Part shown: positions 4,564-57,708 of the stretch, piece after piece
Position numbering within the stretch: the stretch's first letter is position 1
Layout of the letters: the number at the start of each line of letters is the position of its first letter
Assembly: GCF_000316605.1 (NCBI RefSeq)
Contig: NC_019683.1
Coordinates: 1,348,036-1,412,035 of the forward strand
Source: [Leptolyngbya] sp. PCC 7376
GTDB taxonomy: Bacteria; Cyanobacteriota; Cyanobacteriia; Cyanobacteriales; MRBY01
Direction: 5' to 3'
Length of the DNA stretch: 64,000 nt
Translations under genes and position numbers: made by a program
Notes under the pieces: generated by a model
What the model saw: only the letters and a program-made list of their open reading frames with translations
What the model was told of the DNA's origin: nothing
The model's database searches: none

Positions 4564-5304
4564 TTACTCTGCGCTCTGAGCCACAAGGGGATAAAGAGGT
4601 TCTTGCCCATTCAGTTGCCAAATACTAATCACCAAAACCGTTGCCACTGTTAGCCAGAGACAAGATGGCAAAATGATCCAGGCCGCTAAAGGAAGTACCT
4701 GCCAGTAGGCGATCGCCACTGCGAAAGAAGACAACAGAGGCCCCATAATTACCACTGGAACGGCAGCACCTAAACGACCTTCGACTGTGAAAATTGTGTT
4801 CCAAGTGTCACCGAGGGCGAGGTGAATCGCGTAGATAATCAAAGGCAAACTGAGAAAATTTTCGCTAGTGGCCAACCAAATATAGTAAGCAGACACAACT
4901 CGTAAAACCGCGATACTCATCCACACAATCGGAAATGCCAAAGGTGGTGGTGACCAAGTAGGGCGTTGGACAGAATCATAGCGTCTACCCGAGCGAGTAT
5001 TGTCTAGGGGCGAAAAGAGGCGCGATCGCAACGTAAAAAACGCAAAAAATCCGCAAACCGCTGTGACCGTCATCCATGGTTGCGAAAAATATTGAGTCAC
5101 CTGTGGCAGAAGAAAATTCATCCCCCAGAGCAGCGCCACTAATAATCCAATTTGGAGCGCTGTACCGAGAATATAGTTGACGGTCGCTTTCCCATCGAAC
5201 TGTGGATTCTCTAGATCTGTCGCAATTTTTTTATCGTCATTGGCTTTTTCCTCGACGCCCATGACCGTTTGGACGCCGGATTTAACAATATTTTTTGAGT
5301 CCAT
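4564..5304 (-). CDS. TspO/MBR-family tryptophan-rich membrane protein
   Basis: TspO/MBR proteins are small helical membrane proteins that bind tetrapyrroles or other hydrophobic ligands. This one has a short polar N-terminus (MDSKNIVKSG) and about six hydrophobic helices. The motif RPTWSPPPLAFPIVW matches the WxPPxxxFPxVW signature of the family, and LGDTWNTIF takes the place of the usual LNxxWSxxFF. The frame stays open to 5457, but that extension runs into the inverted repeat at 5402-5495. I therefore chose the internal ATG at 5304; neither start has a strong ribosome binding site. It may be co-transcribed with the two ATPase genes downstream. Confidence 0.7.
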   Translation of the reverse strand: MDSKNIVKSGVQTVMGVEEKANDDKKIATDLENPQFDGKATVNYILGTALQIGLLVALLWGMNFLLPQVTQYFSQPWMTVTAVCGFFAFFTLRSRLFSPLDNTRSGRRYDSVQRPTWSPPPLAFPIVWMSIAVLRVVSAYYIWLATSENFLSLPLIIYAIHLALGDTWNTIFTVEGRLGAAVPVVIMGPLLSSFAVAIAYWQVLPLAAWIILPSCLWLTVATVLVISIWQLNGQEPLYPLVAQSAE

Positions 5305-5401
5305 CGTAGTGGTCTTGCCTAATCGCAGTATTAAAAAAGTGGTGTTTAAAAAGTATTGATGATCGTAAACGATTCCATGCGACGGCTCTAGATTTTTGGT
5401 A

Positions 5402-5495
5402 TTGGTGACATAGGAGAGGATACTTGCAGTAACAGATCCACAAGAAGCTGAATGCATAGATATCTACTTTTTTACAGTCTGCTCATTCATCCCTC
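5402..5495. repeat. Left arm of a ~94-bp imperfect inverted repeat
   Basis: The reverse complement of 5402-5495 matches 6571-6665 with about 12 mismatches by my hand alignment (roughly 87%). The shared core includes GCAGACTGTAAAA, ATGCATTCAGCTT and GGATCTGTTACTGCAAGTAT. The arm overlaps the extended 5' part of the tspO frame and lies just upstream of the divergent lipoprotein gene. Confidence 0.85.
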
Positions 5496-5578
5496 AGGCG
5501 AATGAAATTAAGAGAGGTGACGTTTTGATATTGTTGTAGCAACGCCATAGCTCTACTGTTTAACTTAGAGAAATCTCA

Positions 5579-6376
5579 ATGAAAAAATTAACGTTCATAT
5601 TGTTCACATTGCTGATGCTTACAGCTTGCGGCGAGGCTGATCAGCAGGGACTCGAACGTAATGAAACTGCTACTCCAGAATCGTCCAACAGTTCAGAGTC
5701 GTTCCGTGCCGATGCTCCACCACCACCCAAGAAAAAAGGGACAGAGGAAATAAATTTCACAACCAATACTGTGAGCAATGGAACAGTTTCCTTCCGCATG
5801 GATGTCTGGGCGGACAACTGGTTCGCAGCGTATCTTGGCGAGACTTTGATTGTTGAAGACAGCGTTCCGATTACAACAGAGCGGTCTTTTAATGCTGAAT
5901 CAGTGACTTTTAAAGCCGACTATCCACTAAATATCAATTTTATCTTGAGAGATTTCAAGGAAAATAATACAGGGCTAGAGTATATCGGAGAAAATAAGCA
6001 GCAGATGGGTGATGGTGGTTTCATCATGCAGCTTATAAAAACCAGCACAGGCGCTGTTGTTGCTGTCACCAATAGTTCGCTGAACTGTTTGGTTATTCAC
6101 GAAGCACCCCTCGATAAATCTTGCGAAAATGAATCGAATCCTGTGGCCGGTACAGCGCCCTGTGATTTTGTAGAAACACCTGAGCCTGATAGGTGGATGT
6201 CGGCTAGCTATGATGACAGTGAATGGACGGCAACCACGGTTCATTCGGCGAGCGATGTTGATCCTAAACGAGGGTATGACCAAATTTTATGGGATGATTC
6301 GGCCGAATTTATTTGGGGGCCTGACCTTGAAACAGACAATACGTTACTTTGTCGCGTAACGATTCTGAGTCCATAG
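5579..6376 (+). CDS. Putative lipoprotein of unknown function
   Basis: This 265-residue protein begins with a signal sequence and lipobox (MKKLTFILFTLLMLTAC, then GEADQQG), so the Cys at residue 17 is probably lipidated. The mature protein starts with a low-complexity acidic and Pro-rich linker. It continues with a beta-rich region containing WADNWFAAYLGE, WMSASYDDSEW and LWDDSAEFIWGPD, which resembles carbohydrate-binding jelly-roll repeats that recur around WxASYDDSxW. That likeness is inferred. It is the only gene between the two inverted-repeat arms at 5402-5495 and 6571-6665. Confidence 0.75.
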   Translation: MKKLTFILFTLLMLTACGEADQQGLERNETATPESSNSSESFRADAPPPPKKKGTEEINFTTNTVSNGTVSFRMDVWADNWFAAYLGETLIVEDSVPITTERSFNAESVTFKADYPLNINFILRDFKENNTGLEYIGENKQQMGDGGFIMQLIKTSTGAVVAVTNSSLNCLVIHEAPLDKSCENESNPVAGTAPCDFVETPEPDRWMSASYDDSEWTATTVHSASDVDPKRGYDQILWDDSAEFIWGPDLETDNTLLCRVTILSP

Positions 6377-6570
6377 ATTCTCAGTTTGTAAGATAGAAAA
6401 GTCGCTGTCCTATGATGCTATGTTCGCCGCGCTTCGAGCCGTTTGGGCTCTAATCTCTATCGCCATGTTGAGCAAAGGCAAGCCAGAGCTAGATTATCTC
6501 AATTGTCGGTTTCCCCTAGAGATTGAGGAATAAGATGATCCGCTGAATTGTTTTTTTTCGTTGGTGAATT

Positions 6571-6665
6571 GAGGGATAAATAAGCAGACTGTAAAACAAT
6601 AGATATCCATGCATTCAGCTTTTTATGGATCTGTTACTGCAAGTATTCTCCCCTATTTGACCAAC
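6571..6665. repeat. Right arm of the ~94-bp imperfect inverted repeat
   Basis: Partner of 5402-5495 in opposite orientation, ending 14 nt from the mscS stop. Read on the plus strand it encodes MHSAFYGSVTASILPYLTN; the left arm read on minus encodes MHSASCGSVTASILSYVTN. The remaining part of the 6377-6679 gap shows no gene. Confidence 0.85.
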
Positions 6666-44717: not shown

Positions 44718-44777
44718 AAAGCACGATTAGCTACAGATTTTTAAACACACTCAAAAATCTGTAGCTAATCGTGCTTT
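44718..44777. repeat. 25-bp perfect inverted repeat at the 3' end of hlyD
   Basis: Positions 44718-44742 are the exact reverse complement of 44753-44777, with a 10-nt loop (AAACACACTC). The inner arm includes the last eight codons of hlyD (RKARLATDF, stop at 44751). No T-run follows on either strand, so it is not a standard terminator, although it could protect the mRNA end. Confidence 0.92.
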
Positions 44778-46184
44778 CCGTAACAGAAATGCTAAAAAAG
44801 TCTCTTCTTTCGTCACAATAGAAACATTCCCCTCCATCCCAGCTTGTAAAGTGCAGGAAGAGTAGATATCACCAAAAGTATTACTTTGTGGTGTGATGAT
44901 AGCTTTATAAAAAGATTGGTTATTACTGATAAAAGTATCTGTCGATATTTCTTTCAGCACCCCCGAAAGAGTCCCATAATCAGGATAAGGACACGCTGAA
45001 ATTCTAATTTGTGCTGTTTGTCCTATTTCAAGATTATGAATATCAGCAGCCGAAATTAGAGCATTAATAGTTAAAGGAGCATTCTGGGGTGAAATTTGAG
45101 CAATTTCTGTACCGGGTTGCACCCTTTGACTTGAGTTACGCAATAAAAGTTTAAGAACAGTACCACTAGTGGGAGCAGTAATAACCCCTCGTTGTATCTG
45201 CTTCTCAACTTGTTTTAATGCTATTTCTTCGCGATCACCTTGTTTTTGCAGCTCAATACTTTGGCCGAGCAATAAATTCTTTTCCCTTTTAAGATCAGCT
45301 TGTATAGCCATAAAGGCAGCTTTTTCTCTTGCAATAGCTTGTTGTGTAATTTTTACTTCAGAGTCGCTAGGATTTAAAGCAATTTTAGCTTTTTCCCATC
45401 TTCCTTGGGCAATTTGAAGCGTTTGTTTACCAGTTTCAATCTCTTGAATTTGTACCAAAACATTCTGCTTTTTTTGTTCCACACCAAGCTGAATTTCCTT
45501 TAATAGTTCTTGAGAGATTGCTCCTGTTTCGGTGAGGGGAGCATATCGTTTGAATTTTTCTTGTTCAGCTTCTAACTCAGCTTTTGCCGCATCTAAATGA
45601 GCAAAGGATATCTTTAATTCTGCTTCTTCTCGTTTTATATCAGCTTGGGTTTCTTCTAGATCTTTTTCTGTGGTAGATTGACGATCCTGATATTCTCGTT
45701 TCTGACCAGCTAATTGAGCTTCTAGGGAAAGAATAATACGATTATATCTCTCTGTTTCTGCTATCAACTGACGATCTAAAGCAATCATTTGTTGATTAAT
45801 CTGTCGTTGTTGTTGGGCTAACTTTTCCAAAGAACCCTGTAACTGTATTTGTTCAAGCTGTAATTGAGAATCATCAAGAAGAGCTATTGTTTCTCCAGCT
45901 TGAACAAATTGATTTTCTTTAACCTTAATGGTTTTAACAGTTCCTTCTTCGGTAGATTCTACAATTTGTATTTCTCCTTCAGGACGAATCGTAGTGCTCG
46001 CCTCAACTGTCACCTTATATTTAGTCACAGCTGCCAAAATAAAAGCTGAAACCATTGTCGTCGCTAAGGCTAGTCCTCCCAAACTTAGCCAAGGACTAAT
46101 TGGGGGTAAAAATTCTTGCTCAGAAATAGTTGGTAAAACAGCTTCTTCATTGGAATGGACCATTGATAAATCTAGGCTCACCAT
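44751..46184 (-). CDS. HlyD-family membrane-fusion protein for peptide export
   Basis: HlyD-type adaptors link an inner-membrane exporter to the outer membrane. The 477 residues have one membrane helix (LSLGGLALATTMVSAFILAAV, ~33-53) and a biotinyl-lipoyl half (EEGTVKTIKVKENQFVQAGETIALLDD). A long coiled coil (~105-310) is followed by the closing half (ITAPTSGTVLKLLLRNSSQRVQPGTEIAQI) and a beta-barrel domain. It lies downstream of lanA and should serve LanT, since a Gram-negative cell needs a periplasmic bridge. It ends within the 25-bp inverted repeat at 44718-44777. Confidence 0.9.
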   Translation of the reverse strand: MVSLDLSMVHSNEEAVLPTISEQEFLPPISPWLSLGGLALATTMVSAFILAAVTKYKVTVEASTTIRPEGEIQIVESTEEGTVKTIKVKENQFVQAGETIALLDDSQLQLEQIQLQGSLEKLAQQQRQINQQMIALDRQLIAETERYNRIILSLEAQLAGQKREYQDRQSTTEKDLEETQADIKREEAELKISFAHLDAAKAELEAEQEKFKRYAPLTETGAISQELLKEIQLGVEQKKQNVLVQIQEIETGKQTLQIAQGRWEKAKIALNPSDSEVKITQQAIAREKAAFMAIQADLKREKNLLLGQSIELQKQGDREEIALKQVEKQIQRGVITAPTSGTVLKLLLRNSSQRVQPGTEIAQISPQNAPLTINALISAADIHNLEIGQTAQIRISACPYPDYGTLSGVLKEISTDTFISNNQSFYKAIITPQSNTFGDIYSSCTLQAGMEGNVSIVTKEETFLAFLLRKARLATDF

Positions 46185-46295: not shown

Positions 46296-46538
46296 TTAGG
46301 CAATGGTCAACTCTTCACTAGCTTCAAGCGAGCCAGATTTGCAAGACCAGTTACAGGTATGGGTAAATCCAGTTCCACCAGTACAGGTAGTACAACCTCC
46401 CGAAAGTGAAGACATGTCTTCATCATTCAATTCGATTAAACCTGCGGGATTTTCTGGTAACAGGCTTAACTGTTCTTGACTTAAACTGGCTCGGTAATCT
46501 TCATCTTTCCAAGCACGAACGATATCAAAATTAGACAT
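46296..46538 (-). CDS. lanA: Class II lanthipeptide precursor (mersacidin/lichenicidin-type leader)
   Basis: This 80-residue peptide has a leader of the mersacidin/lichenicidin family (SNFDIVRAWKDEDYRASLS, then LLPENPAGLIEL). The leader ends in the double-glycine site MSSLSGG for C39-peptidase cleavage. The predicted core is 32 residues, starting CTTCTGGTGFTHTCNWSC and ending EASEELTIA, with four Cys, one His, six Thr and four Ser. The start has an AGAGG ribosome binding site 5 nt away. A Fur-like box lies 66-84 nt upstream, separate from the lanM promoter. Confidence 0.9.
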   Translation of the reverse strand: MSNFDIVRAWKDEDYRASLSQEQLSLLPENPAGLIELNDEDMSSLSGGCTTCTGGTGFTHTCNWSCKSGSLEASEELTIA

Positions 46539-46603: not shown

Positions 46604-46622
46604 GAGAATGATTATCATTTTC
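46604..46622. promoter_or_regulatory. Fur box upstream of lanA
   Basis: GAGAATGATTATCATTTTC matches the 19-bp Fur consensus GATAATGATAATCATTATC at 16 positions. It contains the perfect palindrome AATGATTATCATT. A TATGAT -10 element lies just downstream on the minus strand (about 46588-46593), so a bound repressor would cover the -35 region. Confidence 0.8.
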
Positions 46623-46666
46623 AAGTTTTCTGTAACAAAATGGCGTGAAATTCCCTATCCAGTGGG

Positions 46667-48811
46667 TTACGGAGTCAAAAAATGAAGATGAGAACCGGTT
46701 TGGGCAAAGAGTTCCTGTGGTGTTCCTTGTCGTTTGACTGTTCCCCTTTCCAAGAAAACGATCCAATCTGCACGGGTAATAACTTGAGGACGATGACTAA
46801 TCAAAATTGTCGTTTTACCTTGACGATGGTTAAGAAGACGAGTGATCACTTCAGTTTCACAAACTGGATCGAGATTAGCTGTAGATTCGTCAAGGATCAA
46901 AATTGGCGAGTTGCTAACAATGCCTAATGCTAGGGCAAGTCGTTGTCTTTGCCCCCCAGAAAGATTGGCTCCAAATTCTCCTAAGATAGTTTGATATTGA
47001 TTGGGAAGTTTACTAATAAATTCATCTGCTTGGGCAATTTTACAAGCTTGAACTATTGTCGAAAAATCGATAGCTGAGTTGCCTAGGCTAAGATTTTCAA
47101 TAATGGAGCGACTCCAAAAGTGAGTCTCTTGGGGTATTAAAACAATTTGCTCTCGAATGGAATCAATGGCTAAATCATTGAGGTTATAATCACCGATGCG
47201 GATTTGTCCTGTTTGAGGAAAATATAAACCTGCGATTAATTTAGCGAGGGTACTTTTACCACAACCGGATTCCCCGATTAAGGCGATCGCTTTCCCTCCA
47301 GAAAGAGAGAGATTAAAATTATGAAGTAGTTCTACTCTACCGGGATGATGAAAGGTCAAATCATGGCAAATCAGATCACTGTCAGGCAATAATTTAACCT
47401 TAGGTTTGATTTGATTTGGTTGAACTTCAGGGGTAGCATCAATAACATCACTAAGACGTTCTAAGGCTGATTGGACAAAAACCAACTGATTAACAAAATC
47501 AATAGTTAAAGTGATAAAACTCAAGGCGTTTTTGCTCATGATATTACAGGCAACTAATTGACCGATAGTTAAATTGCCTTGAAAAACGAGTCGACTACCG
47601 AACCAAAGTAGAATTGCTTCCCCAGTCCGTAAAATAAAGCCTGAGAAAGTGGAATTAAAAATAGCAATCTGTGATCGTTGAAAGTTAACTTTGGCTTGCC
47701 GACCAAATCTCGCTTGAAATTCATCTAAAAATTGGGAGGTAGCATTTTTAGTTTTCATGATTAGTGCCCCCTTGAAAGTTTCTACCAAAACCCCTTGATT
47801 TTCGGCTGTTAACGCTAAAAGTTTTTGTGTTTTCCTTTTGATTTGAGTCCAAAAAATCAAAGTGGACAAACACATAACTATGCCAATAATAAAGGTGATA
47901 AAAAGAAGGTTATAGCTATATAAAAAAATTAAAATTAGAGAAATCAAAGCAATAAATAATTGACTAGGTAACAGAATTAAAGCTTGAGAAACAAGTTGAT
48001 TGACTGCTTGAATATCTCGTAAACGGCTAGCTACTTCCCCACTACGGTGGGATTCATAATAGGCTAAGGGCAAGGATAAAATTGAACGACAGAACTCTAT
48101 CACTAAACTAAGTTCTAAGCCTTGCGAAAAATGGGTTACTAAATAAGACTGGATAAATCTAAAACTACTTCTAAATAGGTTGGAGATGAAAACAGCAATA
48201 ATTACGCCATTAAGGAGTGTTATATCTTGAGTAACCAAGACTTCATCTGTGAGAATTTGCAATAGAAATGGTGAAGTTAAAGCTAAAATCCCAATCATCA
48301 AATTAAGTAACAGAACTTGCCCTAAAAGGCGCTTTTTTTTTGAAAAATAAGCTAAAAAACGTTGGTAATTATTGATCTTACGGCGATCGTCAAGTTGGTG
48401 ATGAAATTCAGGACGAGGTTCGAGTAATAACATCGCCCCATTAGTCCAACCTTTCAATAATTCTGCTTTGGATAAATAACGTAAACCTACAGCTGGATCT
48501 GCGACGATGTATTTATGTCCTTTTTTGCCGTATAAAACAACCCAGTGGACACCTTGCCAGTGAATAATACCGGGTAATGGAATGACGTCTTGATCGATTA
48601 ACTCTAGGGGAACTTTCACTCCCTTAGCATCAAATAAAAGGGTTTTTGCTCCCTGTTTAAGATTTAATAAAGTAGTGCCTAACGCTCCTGTTCCTGCTAC
48701 TTCCCGAACTCGATGGAGGGAAAAAAATTGACCGTAATATTTGGCACAAGTGGCTAAACAAGCAGCACCACAGTCTTCTTCATTATGTTGAAGGATAACC
48801 TGGTATTTCAT
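46667..48811 (-). CDS. lanT: Peptidase-containing ABC exporter (LanT)
   Basis: This 714-residue protein cuts the leader after GG and exports the peptide. The C39 peptidase has catalytic Cys14 in EEDCGAACLA, His in GVHWVVLYG and Asp in IVADPAVG. Six membrane helices cover ~160-440 (for example LLGQVLLLNLMIGILALTSPF). The ATPase has Walker A IGESGCGKST, signature LSGGQRQRLALA and Walker B ILILDESTANLD. The gene overlaps the lanM stop by 4 nt, a coupled junction. Confidence 0.95.
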   Translation of the reverse strand: MKYQVILQHNEEDCGAACLATCAKYYGQFFSLHRVREVAGTGALGTTLLNLKQGAKTLLFDAKGVKVPLELIDQDVIPLPGIIHWQGVHWVVLYGKKGHKYIVADPAVGLRYLSKAELLKGWTNGAMLLLEPRPEFHHQLDDRRKINNYQRFLAYFSKKKRLLGQVLLLNLMIGILALTSPFLLQILTDEVLVTQDITLLNGVIIAVFISNLFRSSFRFIQSYLVTHFSQGLELSLVIEFCRSILSLPLAYYESHRSGEVASRLRDIQAVNQLVSQALILLPSQLFIALISLILIFLYSYNLLFITFIIGIVMCLSTLIFWTQIKRKTQKLLALTAENQGVLVETFKGALIMKTKNATSQFLDEFQARFGRQAKVNFQRSQIAIFNSTFSGFILRTGEAILLWFGSRLVFQGNLTIGQLVACNIMSKNALSFITLTIDFVNQLVFVQSALERLSDVIDATPEVQPNQIKPKVKLLPDSDLICHDLTFHHPGRVELLHNFNLSLSGGKAIALIGESGCGKSTLAKLIAGLYFPQTGQIRIGDYNLNDLAIDSIREQIVLIPQETHFWSRSIIENLSLGNSAIDFSTIVQACKIAQADEFISKLPNQYQTILGEFGANLSGGQRQRLALALGIVSNSPILILDESTANLDPVCETEVITRLLNHRQGKTTILISHRPQVITRADWIVFLERGTVKRQGTPQELFAQTGSHLHFLTP

Positions 48812-51800
48812 ATTTTAATATTGACAGGAGATTCAAGTAACAATACAGAAGGAATACGATCGCAAAAAGCTAAACGAATTAATTCATAACCCATACCAGC
48901 TAAGCCTGTCATTAATCCTAAAGTTTCTACTCCTAAGGGGACACCACAGTCGTAACCTTGTCTTTCAATGCTATTAAGTACTTGGCTGATTTTTTGATAA
49001 TAAGTGTTGGTAAGTTCTTTGTGAGATAAGGTATTTATTCCTTGTAGGAGTAGTTCTAAACTACCTAAATCACCACTACATATGGAATGGTTATTACCAA
49101 AACCTAGTGCCATGGTGGTTTCCATTGCTATATTAATTTCCGAGTTGATTTGTGCGGTTTTTAGCTGAGAAAGACTACTTAAACGAGCTAAACCAATTCC
49201 TGTTGCACCATAACTCCAAGTAACTGCCAAGTTTTCTTGGTCTTTTTCACTATTGTGCCAATTTTTTTTGGTAGCAGAAAAAAGACTTCGTTCATATTTC
49301 CATCCTTCCAAAGCTATTTCTTGATAACGTTGATCTCCTGTAAAAGCAGCTAGTTTTAATAAGGCTAGGGAAATTCCTGCAGCTCCATGGGAAAAACCAC
49401 TTAAGGGTCTTTGACTGGGAATTGTTGACCATCCAATGCCTTCTTTCATGGAAATGGCTTTTTCTAAAAGGCGATCGCCACACTGTATTGCCACAGTCTT
49501 AATATTTTCATCTTGAACCCAATCATAGAGATTAATGAGGGCTAAAATGCAGCCACTAGAACCAGCGACAATATCTAATTGTTCATCTTTTGCAATGAGA
49601 GGAGGCAATTTTTTGAGCCATTCTAAAGCACGATTATCTAATTCTGGTTGTTGCCATAAAGTCCCTAAATGAGTGATTGTATGAATAATTCCACCCCAAC
49701 CATCAAAACCACCGACAGAAGCGATTAAGTCTTGATCGAAGTCAATTTGAATTAAGATAGTTTCTAAAGTATCTTTAGCCAGTTTTGTATATTTTTGTTT
49801 TTGAGTGATTTCTCCTAAATAGGCAAAAAATAGAGCGATTCCGGGAAGTCCTCCAAATAAATCCCAAGCTAAAGGTTTAACTGTCCAATGTCTTTCTCCT
49901 GCTGAATTTAAACCAATCCAACTTGCTTGATTTTTATCTCGAATGGCTAATGATTCTAGGCGAGAGGCAATCTTCTCGGCTGTTTCTAATAATCGATCTT
50001 GAAGTTGTTTCCAATTCTCAATTTTTTCAAATTCTTGCTCCTTATCTATCGCTTTTGTTTGTTTAGTTTCCACTGACATGGCTAAACTGCTTAGGGATGT
50101 TCTGATAAACCAGAGCTGTTCTTCTAAATCATTTTCGCTTAAACGTTTAAATCGTTGTTTTACTCGGTCTAATCCTGATGTGTCAAAAAAATCACTGAGT
50201 TTTTCCTCTTCTCCGCAAATATCTCTACAATTTATCTGAGTATAAAAGAAAGGTATATCACCTTGCCAAAGGGCTTTTTTTTCTAACCGAATTACATGTT
50301 TTAAACTGGGGTGATTAGGAACATCAATCCAAAGGCGATCAAAAAGGTGATCGCGGTCGAGAGCATTTCTTAAAGCATCTGGGTGAAAGCTTTCTTGTAA
50401 CAATAATCCATATAATCTAGTATCTCTCAAAACAACCCTGATTTCATCATTAGCAAATTTAGGTAGCCAAAGGTTTAGGAATAAATCTCGATGCTTAAGT
50501 AATAAACGATAAGTTTCAATAAATCCTTTTTCAATATTTTCTTTATGAGTCCAAACTTCTGGTTCTTTTCCCTGTAAATAAGGAACATTTTTACTTCCAG
50601 AAAGAGTCGCAAATTTCCGCTCTACTTGCATTTTATCTGTTCCTTTCCCGGCTAATTCAGGAGTACGGGTAGGTAAAACTTGACTCCCTACTGCACCTAA
50701 CCCGCTCGAATCAAAACCTCCTGAGTGATCTCTGTCCGCTATTCTTTGTGGTAATAATCCTACTCCCATAACAGATTGACCCATTTTGCGATTTGCTATT
50801 AAACGAGACTCTGGAGAATTAGGATCGAGACATTCAGGACGAAATAAAGTTTCTAGGTCAATGAGAATAGGATTTTCTCCATTGGCAATAATATTTTCGA
50901 GGTGAAAATCCGTTGCTTCTAAAGCTGACATCAAGGCTAAATAACTGCCCATGCGTTGATAAAATCGCTCAACTTCAGCTGCACAGCTACAACCTTTGGC
51001 TTCTACAAATTCTACCCAGCCATATTCACCTCGATTGAGTATCTTTAAGAGCGGCAATGGTAACTCTAATTCTTGCTGATTTAACCAGAGCAACAATTCT
51101 TGTAAATGTTCATCTATTCCTAAAGACCTTGGTTTATAAACCAGTTTTAATCCAGAACTAAATTCTAAAATAAAAACTGATCGTCCTTTTCTATGAGTAT
51201 CTCCTGCGCCTGTTTGTATTTTTACTAACGTACCGGGAGAGGAGTGATGATTAAAATGCTCGCAAATGACATCCCAATCCTGATAAAGACGTTGTAAAAA
51301 TTCTAAACTTATGTCTACCCATTGTTTGAGATAAATTATTACTTGTCGCGCTAAGACCGGATATTCTTGAAGTATCTCTAGAGCATCATCTTTGTTCTCT
51401 AAATTGTGTAGAAAACTGATTAAACGCTCCCTCGGAGTTTTTCCTAATAGTCTTTCTTCTAATCTTGCTACATTCAACTCTAAGACCATCGTTTGACTCA
51501 GTATTGCTAGCAATTGCTCTGGAACTTTCGCTGATAAAATTCCCTTAATATTTTCTGTTCCAAAGAGAATATTGTTGCCTAATTTTTCTATGCCTATCTC
51601 TAAACGAATTAAGGCCTGATCTAATAATGGTTTCACTAAATGCAAAAAACCTATACTGAGTCGCTCATCGGTTAGGGTTTCAACTGGTGCAATCTTCACC
51701 TTAGAAATTTCTTCAACTTCAAAGTCTTTAATTAAGGTTTCTAACCAATCCGGATCGGTACAGCGTTGCGCTAAAGAGTCATCTGATTCGCCCAAAATCT

Positions 51801-51996
51801 TCAGAAATTCATTTTCTGTTAATCCTTCTTGGGATAATTTCTGAGCATAACAATGCTCATTTACTAAAGGTTTTTGCGATCGCCAACGTTGGAGACGACG
51901 ATCCGCTAAGTCGGGATTGGTTGTACGGATTTTTTCCAGTCGAGTCAATCTTTCCTGTAAAGGAAGTCCTCTATACCATTGAGCGAATTTAATCAT
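48808..51996 (-). CDS. lanM: Class II lanthipeptide synthetase LanM with altered zinc site
   Basis: LanM phosphorylates and eliminates Ser/Thr of the precursor and then forms thioether rings. I start at ATG 51996 (MIKFAQWYRGLPLQERL); the frame reaches 52086 but that part overlaps the promoter. The dehydratase keeps KLVYKPRSLG, ATDFHLENII, PILIDLETLF and RDTRLYGLLLQES. In the cyclase H870 (GFSHGAAG, NisC His212) and C973 (NisC Cys330) are kept. W927-S928-Y929-G930 has Ser for the first zinc Cys, and C973-S974-G975 has Ser for the zinc His. Dehydration therefore looks intact while zinc-dependent cyclisation is doubtful. Confidence 0.93.
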   Translation of the reverse strand: MIKFAQWYRGLPLQERLTRLEKIRTTNPDLADRRLQRWRSQKPLVNEHCYAQKLSQEGLTENEFLKILGESDDSLAQRCTDPDWLETLIKDFEVEEISKVKIAPVETLTDERLSIGFLHLVKPLLDQALIRLEIGIEKLGNNILFGTENIKGILSAKVPEQLLAILSQTMVLELNVARLEERLLGKTPRERLISFLHNLENKDDALEILQEYPVLARQVIIYLKQWVDISLEFLQRLYQDWDVICEHFNHHSSPGTLVKIQTGAGDTHRKGRSVFILEFSSGLKLVYKPRSLGIDEHLQELLLWLNQQELELPLPLLKILNRGEYGWVEFVEAKGCSCAAEVERFYQRMGSYLALMSALEATDFHLENIIANGENPILIDLETLFRPECLDPNSPESRLIANRKMGQSVMGVGLLPQRIADRDHSGGFDSSGLGAVGSQVLPTRTPELAGKGTDKMQVERKFATLSGSKNVPYLQGKEPEVWTHKENIEKGFIETYRLLLKHRDLFLNLWLPKFANDEIRVVLRDTRLYGLLLQESFHPDALRNALDRDHLFDRLWIDVPNHPSLKHVIRLEKKALWQGDIPFFYTQINCRDICGEEEKLSDFFDTSGLDRVKQRFKRLSENDLEEQLWFIRTSLSSLAMSVETKQTKAIDKEQEFEKIENWKQLQDRLLETAEKIASRLESLAIRDKNQASWIGLNSAGERHWTVKPLAWDLFGGLPGIALFFAYLGEITQKQKYTKLAKDTLETILIQIDFDQDLIASVGGFDGWGGIIHTITHLGTLWQQPELDNRALEWLKKLPPLIAKDEQLDIVAGSSGCILALINLYDWVQDENIKTVAIQCGDRLLEKAISMKEGIGWSTIPSQRPLSGFSHGAAGISLALLKLAAFTGDQRYQEIALEGWKYERSLFSATKKNWHNSEKDQENLAVTWSYGATGIGLARLSSLSQLKTAQINSEINIAMETTMALGFGNNHSICSGDLGSLELLLQGINTLSHKELTNTYYQKISQVLNSIERQGYDCGVPLGVETLGLMTGLAGMGYELIRLAFCDRIPSVLLLESPVNIKI

Positions 51997-52032: not shown

Positions 52033-52294
52033 ATTATTGGTTAGCAAAAAAATTATGTGGCATCCCAGAATCAAAGTGATTTTCAAGGGCGCTCTCAGGC
52101 CTTGATTTCCCTGGATTGTGGAAGGAAAATCGCCTGTGTTGTCAAATAGTTTTTAAAACCAAAATCTTTGTGCATTTCTACGATCATTTAGTTTAGATAC
52201 CTTTCAGAGTTAAGTGCTGAAAGAGAGCTGCACCACGATACAGAGGGTCTAGTCGCCTTAGCCAAACATAGTCAGTTAAGCTTTCTCCAGGAAT

Positions 52295-52313
52295 GATAAT
52301 GATTATCATTTTA
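52295..52313. promoter_or_regulatory. Fur box in the iron-porin promoter
   Basis: GATAATGATTATCATTTTA matches 16 of 19 Fur consensus positions, and 52294-52308 (TGATAATGATTATCA) is a perfect 7-1-7 Fur palindrome. A TATAGA -10-like sequence follows at about 52316-52321, 37 nt before the porin ATG. Confidence 0.88.
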
Positions 52314-52357
52314 ACTATAGAATGACTAGACTGACTTTAAGGTGTAAGGAAATCTTC

Positions 52358-54166
52358 ATGACCGAAATGTTTAATAAAGTTATTGCAACATCAGTGACTG
52401 TATCAATCCTAGGGATTTTGCCCTACGCAGAGGCGAGCGCCGCACCGACCAATTTTCTAGAAATGCAGGACAGTCTACTCTCCCAACAAAACTCCCTTGG
52501 CCAAGTAAACAGCGTCTTCCAACTGCGTGATATCGCCCCTTCCGACTGGGCCTTCGACGCACTCCGCAACCTTGTCGAAAAATATAACTGCATTGCTGGT
52601 TACCCTGACAGCACATTCCGAGGTGATCGCCCCCTCAGCCGTTACGAATTTGCAGCTGGTCTGAACGCTTGTGTACAACAGATTGAACGCTTAATTGTTG
52701 GCGGTGGTTCTGATGTTGATACCGCAGATATCACTCGTTTACAGGCACTAGTGCAAGAATTTGAAGCAGAATTGGGCACCCTCAGTGCACGCGTTGACGA
52801 CGTTGGAGGTCGCGTTGAATTCCTCGAAGACAACCAGTTTTCCATTACAACCAAGCTGAAAGGAGAAGTTGTTTTTGCTTTAACAGACGTTTTAACAGGA
52901 GATAGCACAACCTCAACTTTTCCCTCGATTTTTAGCCCTACTGGCAATATTGATATAGAAAATCCCAGTCAACAAACAGTTTTTGCCAATCGAGTTCGTT
53001 TAGATTTTCTTACCAGTTTCACCGGTCAGGATTTACTTAAAGCTCGTCTCACCAGCGGTAATTTTCCCCATCCCAATCGTCCCGGAGGATTTCAATATGC
53101 ACCTAATCCTTTACGGGGGTATCAAGGAGGTTTAGCTTTTTCCTCTGAAGGTCAACAAACCTTTAACGATATTGCAGATTTACCTGGTGATAATTCAGTC
53201 GGAATAACCGAATTAAGCTATGAATTTCCTATCGGTGACAAAGCTGAAGTAACAATTATGGCTACAGGAGGAGAACACCACGACTATGTACCCAGCACAT
53301 TTAGTAGTTGGGATGATGATAATGGAGGTACAGGTTCTCTTTCCGTTTTCGGACAACGTAGTGCAATTTATAACTTTGCAGGATCAGGTATCGGGTTAAA
53401 CTATGACTTCAACGACAGCATTAACATTAGTGCGGGTTATCTAGCTACTTATGCCAGTAATCCTAGCAGTCCAGATATAGGTAATCCTTTTGCCGGAGGG
53501 TTATTTGATGGTAGATACTCAGCTCTAGCACAATTAACTATTAAACCGACCGATAATTTTTCCTTTGGTTTAACCTACAGCCATAGTTTCCATCCCGTAG
53601 AAACTCCATTTAATAGCTTACCTATTTTCTTCAATGATCAAGGGACAAATTTAGCAAATTTCCCTGTTGTTCCGACTCAAGAAGTTTCAGTTAATTCCTA
53701 TGGTTTGCAGACTTTATGGGAATTAAGTCCTAAGTTTGCTGTAAATGCTTGGTTTGCCTACAATCAGATTAATACTTCAAGTGGTACAGCACCCTTTGGT
53801 TTGGGTGACTATAGTAGTAGTACTGCAGACGTCTTAACTTACGGAATTTCTTTGGCCTTTCCTGACTTGCTCAAAGAAGGTAACTTAGGCGGTGTTGTAG
53901 TGGGGGCATCTCCCTACGCAACTGAAGCAAGAGTTCCTGAACCTTTTCGCACTGGCGGTAATTGGTTTGGGTCAGATTTGGGAGATGATTATACTGATTT
54001 AATTGCCGGAAATTCTATTCCTTGGCATATTGAGGCATTTTATCGCCACCAAATGACAGACAATATTTCTTTAACTCCTGGTGTTATTTGGTTAACTGCA
54101 CCTAATCAGTCTTCTCAAAATCCTGATGTAGTAGTTGGCACACTTAGACTAACTTTCTCTTTCTAG
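52358..54166 (+). CDS. Iron-uptake porin with SLH domain (OprB-type)
   Basis: This ~602-residue outer-membrane protein has a signal peptide (VIATSVTVSILGILPYAEASA). One SLH domain follows (DIAPSDWAFDALRNLVEKYN, then GYPDSTFRGDRPLSRYEFAAG), then a short coiled coil (ARVDDVGGRVEFLEDNQ). A beta-barrel of the OprB type ends in Phe (GTLRLTFSF). Members of this family are induced by iron limitation and help inorganic iron uptake in cyanobacteria. The ATG at 52358 has AAGGA 8 nt upstream; the frame opens at 52322, inside the promoter. A strong Fur box supports the iron assignment. Confidence 0.9.
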   Translation: MTEMFNKVIATSVTVSILGILPYAEASAAPTNFLEMQDSLLSQQNSLGQVNSVFQLRDIAPSDWAFDALRNLVEKYNCIAGYPDSTFRGDRPLSRYEFAAGLNACVQQIERLIVGGGSDVDTADITRLQALVQEFEAELGTLSARVDDVGGRVEFLEDNQFSITTKLKGEVVFALTDVLTGDSTTSTFPSIFSPTGNIDIENPSQQTVFANRVRLDFLTSFTGQDLLKARLTSGNFPHPNRPGGFQYAPNPLRGYQGGLAFSSEGQQTFNDIADLPGDNSVGITELSYEFPIGDKAEVTIMATGGEHHDYVPSTFSSWDDDNGGTGSLSVFGQRSAIYNFAGSGIGLNYDFNDSINISAGYLATYASNPSSPDIGNPFAGGLFDGRYSALAQLTIKPTDNFSFGLTYSHSFHPVETPFNSLPIFFNDQGTNLANFPVVPTQEVSVNSYGLQTLWELSPKFAVNAWFAYNQINTSSGTAPFGLGDYSSSTADVLTYGISLAFPDLLKEGNLGGVVVGASPYATEARVPEPFRTGGNWFGSDLGDDYTDLIAGNSIPWHIEAFYRHQMTDNISLTPGVIWLTAPNQSSQNPDVVVGTLRLTFSF

Positions 54167-55905: not shown

Positions 55906-57708
55906 GTGAATTCATATAGAAGACAAGACGCAGAAAACGTTCGTGTGACGGCTGCAAAATTGGCGGCAGCTCGTCCTCATCCGCGCCACATCGCTAACGA
56001 CGATGAACAGAAATTTCGAGTACAGGTTTCAGAAGACAGTAATAAACCCAGCTATCTTGCCAGCTATACCAAAGGCTTGCCCCATGACAACACAACAGGA
56101 CTCATTCGTAATCCTGATGATTTCCAGCAATTTGTAAAGGCGATCGATAGTGGCGACCCACGTGACTTCCAAGACACACCACTAGGCCCTAAAGGCTATA
56201 CCGAAGAAAATGGTCAAGGCTGTGGCTGGCGCTCAGTCAGTGCAGCTAATGCCAAAGTCCGTGCATGGGAAAGCCAAGGTGCAGGTAATACCTTCGATTT
56301 AGAAGGGCCAGATGCCCAGGCTGTTACGATGCCTCCCGCTCCAGCTGTGGGGAGTGCTGAGCTGACCGCAGAAATGGCCGAAGTTTATGCCCAAGCTTTA
56401 TTACGCGATGTCCCTTTCACAAAAATTGTGGATGAAAGTGGCACCGTCGATCTTGACCACAATGATTGTTCTGGTGATCAAGGCGTTGACACTTCCGTGA
56501 AAAGAATTCTGAGAACGCTCAATAAACTAGAGTGGTTCAAATCGCAGGATTGTGAATGTTTAACCGATGCTGAAAAGAGTCGCAAACGCGGTTCTTTCAC
56601 TGGTCAAACAGTCTTCCGTGGTATCACTCCTGGTGACAATGTCGGCCCTTACATTTCCCAGTTTTTACTTGCAGGAAATTCTGGTATTAACGGTAATGAC
56701 AACGAGCGCGAACCAGCAAAAGGTTTAATCACTTATGGAGCAGTGAATATCGACCAACGAGTACGATTTGCAACTCCTAATAAGGATTTCATGACTACAT
56801 GGTATGAGTGGCTTGATGTTCAAGAAGGCGCTGATCTCCGTGGCCAAGAATCTTATGTGGAAGGCCCTGCCCGTCGTTTCATTACGACCCCCCGCGATTT
56901 GGCAACCTATGTTCATTACGATGCTCTGTATGAGGCCTATCTAAATGCATGCCTAATTTTGTTGGCAGATGGGATTCCGTTTGACCCCGGCATTCCTTTC
57001 CAACGCAGTGACTTTATTGATCATCAGCAAGGCTTTGCTCATTTTGGCGGCCCTCACATTCTGTCGTTGGTAACTGAAGTCGCAACTCGCGCTCTGAAAG
57101 CGGTTCGCTTCCAGAAGTTTAATGTGCACCGTCGTTTACGTCCCGAGGCTTTGGCTGCCCGTTTAGCACGTTGTGAACAGTTGAATGTTGCTGAAGTTAA
57201 GGAAATGGCTCAAGATCCTGCTCTCGCTAAAATCCTGGGCTGGGTTGCTGAAAAGAATGGCACTGTTGATCCTGTGCTTGGGGATAGAAACTATCTCCTA
57301 CCTATGGCATTTGCTGAAGGATCTCCAATGCACCCATCCTATGGTGCAGGTCATGCCACTGTTGCTGGCGCTTGTGTCACGATTCTCAAAGCTTTCTTTG
57401 ATCACAAGCATCCTTTGACGATCGCCGGTAATGATCACACTGCTTTTGTTCCGACGGAAGATGGTTCTTGTTTGACCAAGGTTTCTGTTGATGGGCAGTT
57501 AACAGTGGAGGGTGAACTCAACAAACTTGCGTCGAATATTTCGATTGGTCGTGATTGGGCTGGTGTTCACTACTTCTCTGATTACATCGAGTCGATTCGC
57601 ATGGGCGAGCAGATTGCGATCGGAATTCTTGAGGAGCAAAAGTTGACCTATGGTGAAAACTTCTCGATGACTGTGCCGCTTTTTGATGGTGGTTCGATTC
57701 GCATCTAG
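55906..57708 (+). CDS. Vanadium-dependent haloperoxidase
   Basis: These enzymes use vanadate and hydrogen peroxide to oxidise bromide or chloride. The 600 residues carry all vanadate-site blocks: KFNVHRRLRPE (Lys and Arg), PMHPSYGAGHATVAGA (Ser, Gly, His) and SIGRDWAGVHYFSD (Arg and the vanadium-linked His). The length and N-region match the bromoperoxidase type found in marine algae and some cyanobacteria, not the acid phosphatases of the same superfamily. No signal peptide is evident. The start is GTG, with an ACGAGG ribosome binding site 9 nt away. A terminator follows at 57764-57809. Confidence 0.93.
   Translation: MNSYRRQDAENVRVTAAKLAAARPHPRHIANDDEQKFRVQVSEDSNKPSYLASYTKGLPHDNTTGLIRNPDDFQQFVKAIDSGDPRDFQDTPLGPKGYTEENGQGCGWRSVSAANAKVRAWESQGAGNTFDLEGPDAQAVTMPPAPAVGSAELTAEMAEVYAQALLRDVPFTKIVDESGTVDLDHNDCSGDQGVDTSVKRILRTLNKLEWFKSQDCECLTDAEKSRKRGSFTGQTVFRGITPGDNVGPYISQFLLAGNSGINGNDNEREPAKGLITYGAVNIDQRVRFATPNKDFMTTWYEWLDVQEGADLRGQESYVEGPARRFITTPRDLATYVHYDALYEAYLNACLILLADGIPFDPGIPFQRSDFIDHQQGFAHFGGPHILSLVTEVATRALKAVRFQKFNVHRRLRPEALAARLARCEQLNVAEVKEMAQDPALAKILGWVAEKNGTVDPVLGDRNYLLPMAFAEGSPMHPSYGAGHATVAGACVTILKAFFDHKHPLTIAGNDHTAFVPTEDGSCLTKVSVDGQLTVEGELNKLASNISIGRDWAGVHYFSDYIESIRMGEQIAIGILEEQKLTYGENFSMTVPLFDGGSIRI

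Follow-up and report, generated by a model that had tools for sequence, protein, structure and literature searches.

LanC-type cyclases hold zinc with two cysteines and a histidine, and the zinc activates the substrate cysteine. The window analyzed here, a 64,000-nucleotide stretch of the [Leptolyngbya] sp. PCC 7376 genome, encodes a lanthipeptide synthetase whose cyclase domain lacks two of these three ligands. Is this domain still a working cyclase, and in what setting were the ligands lost?

A class II synthetase lacking two of three zinc ligands

The synthetase gene and the positions that bear on its cyclase chemistry are as follows (window coordinates):

48808-51996, minus strand: lanM, class II lanthipeptide synthetase variant, DUF4135 dehydratase plus LANC_like cyclase, 1,062 amino acids from M at 51996
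48811-50034, minus strand: cyclase (LanC-like) domain, alpha/alpha toroid by AlphaFold2 model and structural match to LicM2
49573-49575, minus strand: D808, equivalent to NisC Asp141 by alignment
49387-49389, minus strand: H870 in GFSH870G, equivalent to NisC His212 by alignment
49213-49215, minus strand: S928 (AGT) in place of the first zinc Cys by alignment (NisC Cys284; ThurKC Ser726)
49078-49080, minus strand: C973, second ligand position, retained (NisC Cys330)
49075-49077, minus strand: S974 (AGT) in place of the zinc His (NisC His331); Asn in 9/11 and Ser in 2/11 clade members

The product scores 987 bits against the LanM model TIGR03897 (cut-off, 304), the match extends across the cyclase domain, and the DUF4135 dehydratase and LanC-like domains are those of a class II LanM. 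The residues for phosphorylation and elimination are all present (K288, D363-x-H365-x-x-N368, D380-x-E382, and R520...T526), as the first-pass annotation of this DNA had noted. The motif changes that it described are also borne out: the AGT codons, read directly at 49215-49213 and 49077-49075, turn WCxG into W927-S928-Y929-G930 and CHG into C973-S974-G975, and H870 is intact. Aligned with the characterized enzyme LicM2 (6st5), a comparison that the same annotation had proposed, WSYG and CSG of the window protein stand opposite WCHGAPG and NHSLCHG. Where class II enzymes have Cys, Cys, and His or Cys, this protein has S928, C973, and S974; two of three ligands are lost, and the canonical zinc site cannot form, because no substitute Cys or His is conserved in the clade described below.

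The further suggestion that the cyclase might use another metal site found no support. No Cys or His is gained throughout the 11-member clade alignment. C862 was considered as a replacement ligand and dropped, being present in 7/11 clade members only and missing from the window LanM. A search of the 5.1-Mb genome for a LanC-type cyclase acting in trans returned a single DUF4135 hit and a single LANC_like hit, both of them lanM, so no other LanC-type domain could close rings in trans.

Ligand loss as a clade trait

We gathered 99 LanM sequences from same-order relatives and genome contigs, 84 of which have canonical motifs. Two ligands, the first Cys and the His, are missing from 11/11 LanMs of one cyanobacterial clade (here, the zinc-less LanMs) and kept in 68/68 compared relatives. 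In all 11, the first position holds Ser or Asn and the His position holds Asn or Ser; D808 and H870 are invariant (11/11), and C973 is present in 10/11. The window protein reads WSYG/CSG, that of Spirulina CS-785/01 reads WNYG/CSG, and L037 reads WSHG/GNG, while the other eight, including a Coleofasciculus MAG, Iningainema, Microcoleus, and Tychonema, read WSHG/CNG. L037 has thus lost C973 as well, yet it lies within the clade with synteny intact. A change of P1026 to Leu is an additional clade-wide difference.

With the zinc-motif columns excluded, a branch with an SH-aLRT of 100 separates the zinc-less LanMs from all others in a quick LG+G4 tree without bootstrap. A search of a 386-genome sample of the phylum found no further members beyond those already known. 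By these comparisons, the ligand loss is a trait of a clade, neither a one-off nor decay. None of five genomes from the same genus (G001-G005) matches the window LanM, and the cluster is therefore read as sporadic in the genus, whether through gain by transfer or through repeated loss.

Constraint and fold of the cyclase domain

Among five close members, the cyclase domain has dN/dS values of 0.125-0.217, comparable to those of the dehydratase and of canonical pairs; measured against the dehydratase, the cyclase of the zinc-less LanMs has also diverged by a ratio similar to that in canonical LanMs. These rates mark the cyclase domain as strongly constrained by purifying selection. An AlphaFold2 model built from a 70-row alignment (pLDDT 96, pTM 0.95) finds its best solved match in LicM2 6st5 (Z 43.4, rmsd 2.3 Å over 373 residues, 27% identity) and also matches NisC and the metal-independent ThurKC. 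As modeled, the toroid fold is intact without the canonical zinc site, and a LanC fold without zinc ligands is a feature that the window cyclase shares with class III LanKC-type enzymes. The first-pass annotation had considered that ring closure might be absent or nonenzymatic; this may still prove right, but the invariance of D808 and H870 in a constrained domain argues against a dead one.

Organization of the gene cluster

The genes around lanM are as follows:

46667-48811, minus strand: lanT, C39 peptidase-ABC exporter (Peptidase_C39, ABC_membrane, ABC_tran); 4-bp overlap with lanM
46296-46538, minus strand: lanA, precursor with mersacidin-type leader ending in GG (TIGR03898, E 3.9e-20) and core CTTCTGGTGFTHTCNWSCKSGSLEASEELTIA
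44751-46184, minus strand: HlyD-type membrane-fusion protein of the export system (HlyD_3, E 4e-16), found in 10/11 zinc-less clusters
52322-54166, plus strand: SLH-OprB outer-membrane porin, divergent from lanM (Pfam OprB, 1e-37; NF033921 "iron uptake porin," 2e-136)

The genes lanM, lanT, lanA, and hlyD run in the same direction, and their order is kept in the zinc-less relatives wherever the contig reaches. Precursors homologous to the window lanA product occur in related clusters. The porin gene is divergent from lanM at 10/10 zinc-less loci where it is visible, and the same porin flanks the four loci of one canonical sister group (L053, L054, L059, and L076). No immunity gene was recognized in the window cluster.

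Beyond the porin gene, 7/11 zinc-less clusters carry TfuA and YcaO genes (Pfam E values 6e-42 and 2e-66). Adjacent TfuA and YcaO genes occur in none of the sister groups and at one of the other LanM loci; both YcaO and TfuA, sought in the window genome as a thiol sink, were absent. Clusters with this pair possibly make thioamidated or azoline-bearing relatives of the window peptide. TfuA and YcaO were located at L034:13342-15942, L037, L050, L052, L067, L113, and L122. Farther along the window, a plus-strand gene at 55906-57708 is a candidate vanadium haloperoxidase gene from the look of its sequence, and in L075 the cluster has a VCPO-domain gene nearby (5168-6649).

Predicted Zur boxes and probable zinc control

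Two palindromic sites lie upstream of the cluster genes:

52294-52308, no strand: Zur-type box TGATAATGATTATCA, 15 bp, perfect 7-1-7, between lanM and the porin gene; the only perfect copy in the 5.1-Mb genome
46603-46617, no strand: Zur-type box TGAGAATGATTATCA, one mismatch, about 65 bp upstream of lanA

The lanA box overlaps both a partial second box (46609-46623) and a promoter-like site, in the latter at the -10 element (GATAAT). A search of the 5.1-Mb genome allowing up to one mismatch found only seven copies of the palindrome; the reversed pattern occurs once. Two of the seven are those of the window cluster, in the lanM-porin spacer and upstream of lanA. One precedes the gene pair znuA-znuC, which encodes a His-rich ZnuA and an ABC ATPase, and lies about 3 kb from a Fur-family regulator; one precedes a CobW GTPase gene, one lies between genes for an FAD protein and a CobW-like protein, and two have no clear target. 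Homologues of ZnuA, the CobW GTPase, or the FAD protein are encoded beside several related lanthipeptide clusters.

Allowing the same single mismatch, the box lies upstream of lanM or lanA in 18/21 regions of the zinc-less group, 6/8 of sister group C1, and 9/12 of sister group C2, making 33/41 regions, versus 0/182 for the other LanM loci. Because the co-regulated znuA and CobW-type genes carry the same sites, we read the palindrome as a Zur box rather than a Fur box; it presumably also agrees with the published Anabaena Zur consensus. Sharing its box with znuA in the same genome, the cluster appears to be a predicted member of the Zur regulon.

Canonical sisters carry the box too, so the link to Zur is probably older than the ligand loss. 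These box-bearing sisters keep all zinc ligands, and zinc-starvation control alone therefore does not force the loss; as far as the predicted boxes go, they show it to be possible under Zur-type control, not obligatory. One canonical sister group (L038, L062, L074, L077, and L083) has Zur-type boxes together with lanA cores such as DPTHTKTCKHCCP, and znuA-type genes adjoin the L038 and L074 clusters.

Composition of the peptide cores

All 19 cores of the box-bearing family contain at least one His and at least two Cys, compared with 23/78 elsewhere. His is enriched in the box-bearing cores, with a P value of about 8e-10 that is not corrected for kinship, and Cys is not. In the sister groups, some cores follow the pattern C-x2-C-x4-H-x5-C, which resembles a zinc knuckle. 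His- and Cys-containing cores under Zur-type control point to metal binding, and the Cys/His-rich peptide probably binds a metal.

Relation to known systems

The window LanM has in common with the class II enzymes LicM2, CylM, and ProcM the two-domain architecture, the dehydratase residues, and the LanC toroid; it differs from them in lacking two of the three zinc ligands and in the apparent Zur control of its cluster, which is unreported for the other three. The class III enzyme ThurKC cyclizes without metal and has Ser726, Phe770, and Asp771 at the ligand positions, the Asp that replaces His331 being thought to act as the base (PMC10604976). Cyclization without metal is thus within reach of a LanC fold whose first ligand position is Ser, and the window LanM resembles ThurKC in lacking the zinc site and in having Ser for the first ligand Cys at the same position. 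ThurKC differs at the other two positions, which are Phe and Asp, and lacks the Asp141/His212 pair that the window LanM keeps; class III LanKC enzymes also have lyase and kinase domains, whereas the window LanM has a DUF4135 dehydratase.

The LanMbC/CcaM enzymes of the dehydrazoles (PMC10676384) likewise join a DUF4135 dehydratase to a cyclase without zinc ligands, and CcaM is encoded beside YcaO, as are 7/11 of the zinc-less LanMs. In CcaM, however, the cyclase is of class III type, and the substrates are azole peptides, which it modifies together with YcaO and a dehydrogenase (PMC10676384); the window cyclase is of class II, its relatives have TfuA as the YcaO partner, and the window genome has neither, so the features that define LanMbC are absent. 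CA_C0082 and its clostridial homologues (PMC10301443) are LanM-like and, like the window LanM, have no zinc motif; in this group the dehydratase residues are gone as well, and beyond CA_C0082 C. acetobutylicum has no genes for making lanthipeptides (PMC10301443), whereas the window dehydratase and precursor are intact, the latter with its TIGR03898 leader and GG. Zinc-less LanC-like domains are thus already known from class III, LanMbC, and CA_C0082, each differing in a defining feature.

The closest regulatory parallels are HemB2 and FolE2, which are paralogues of zinc enzymes under Zur control, and cyanobacterial zinc acquisition by ZepA (PMC6103462, PMC4628125, and PMC10957091), in which, as here, a zinc-starvation regulon includes a protein apparently freed from zinc. 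We found no description of a lanthipeptide synthetase or precursor in a regulon of this type, and a literature search that covered few subscription journals returned no paper linking lanthipeptides to Zur, zincophores, or zinc acquisition. The window enzyme is a class II LanM variant and belongs to a lanthipeptide family whose apparent regulatory setting is new to the literature searched.

Proposed function and alternatives

We lean toward the view that this is a Zur-repressed zinc-starvation lanthipeptide cluster with a zinc-free LanM and a secreted peptide that probably binds zinc. Under zinc shortage, Zur would leave the boxes at 52294 and 46603, and its release would derepress lanM-lanT, lanA-hlyD, and the porin gene. 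The dehydratase domain would phosphorylate core Ser and Thr and carry out elimination. The cyclase would be a zinc-independent variant, with the first Cys changed to Ser and the His to Asn or Ser and with the D808/H870 acid/base pair, C973, and the toroid kept; ring closure, where it occurs, would need no bound zinc, which is also the case in class III LanKC. Retention of the pair suggests that addition and protonation still occur. LanT would cleave the leader after GG, and the exported Cys/His-rich peptide (C-x2-C...H...C) would bind a metal, zinc or some other; the porin would be its likely partner in the outer membrane. This LanM may have been freed from zinc because it is needed when zinc is scarce. 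Tentatively, we go one step further and picture a zinc-sparing class II synthetase that makes a peptide zincophore, having shed its catalytic zinc and building a thiol/imidazole-rich scavenger when zinc is absent. It counts against zinc-free cyclization here that ThurKC has Asp in place of His331, where the zinc-less LanMs have Ser or Asn.

The chief rival, which we consider a possibility to be taken seriously, though an unlikely one, is a dehydratase-only enzyme: the cyclase would close no rings and stay as a scaffold or substrate binder, leaving a dehydrated core whose free thiols bind metal or, where YcaO-TfuA is present, whose thiols or backbone go to YcaO instead. Zinc-ligand mutants of LctM are reported to keep dehydration and to be impaired in cyclization (Paul 2007), the YcaO-associated CcaM also acts as a dehydratase without zinc ligands, TfuA and YcaO adjoin most zinc-less clusters, and free thiols would suit a metal-binding core. 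But D808 and H870, with a known role in cyclization, are invariant in the clade, whereas other LanMs without the zinc motif, L016 and L021, have lost one of the two equivalents, and YcaO and TfuA are both missing from the window genome. It is doubtful that the cluster makes just another antimicrobial lantibiotic, produced in step with zinc status but binding no metal, with the ligands lost by neutral drift to zinc-free cyclization. The mersacidin-type leader and the exporter would fit, as would the similar leaders at many box-less cyanobacterial LanM loci; the box, porin, and His-rich Cys cores, however, co-occur across distant families, and no immunity gene is recognized in the window cluster.

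Continued use of zinc is improbable: C973, kept in all but one member, and the Asn or Ser residues as possible weak ligands could, with substrate Cys or water, keep a metal in the pocket weakly or transiently, but L037 lacks C973 and still sits in the clade with intact synteny, and the clade has gained no Cys or His. Iron control through a Fur box was our first idea, from the palindrome and the name of the porin model NF033921, which also speaks against the zinc reading; TGATAATnATTATCA presumably resembles Fur boxes as well. We dropped it and now hold it very unlikely, because the same sites genome-wide precede znuA and CobW-type genes and no recognizable iron genes. That the cyclase is degenerating and functionless is scarcely credible: the motifs do differ among members, but dN/dS and synteny led us to reject decay, and strong purifying selection, 11 intact frames, and a conserved operon, porin, and box already largely contradict it.

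If the favored account of a zinc-free LanM under Zur control is true, a naturally occurring class II lanthipeptide synthetase does its work without zinc, the metal considered essential for its cyclase; a physiological reason is at hand, and the lanthipeptide family serves metal nutrition, not killing. The close canonical sisters share the regulation of the clade and have cores similar to its own, so that the effect of losing the zinc site can be gauged by direct comparison.

Other LanMs with altered zinc motifs

L040 (G045) and L041 (G029) form a second set, distinct from the clade and likewise devoid of the zinc motif; they read WTNG/CWG and WANG/CWG. One of the two also lacks the GFSHG His and one the Asp, and look-alike neighbor genes lie at both loci. 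L143, a LanM of the canonical group, has WCQSTPG instead of WCxGxxG and so departs from the first zinc motif in another way.
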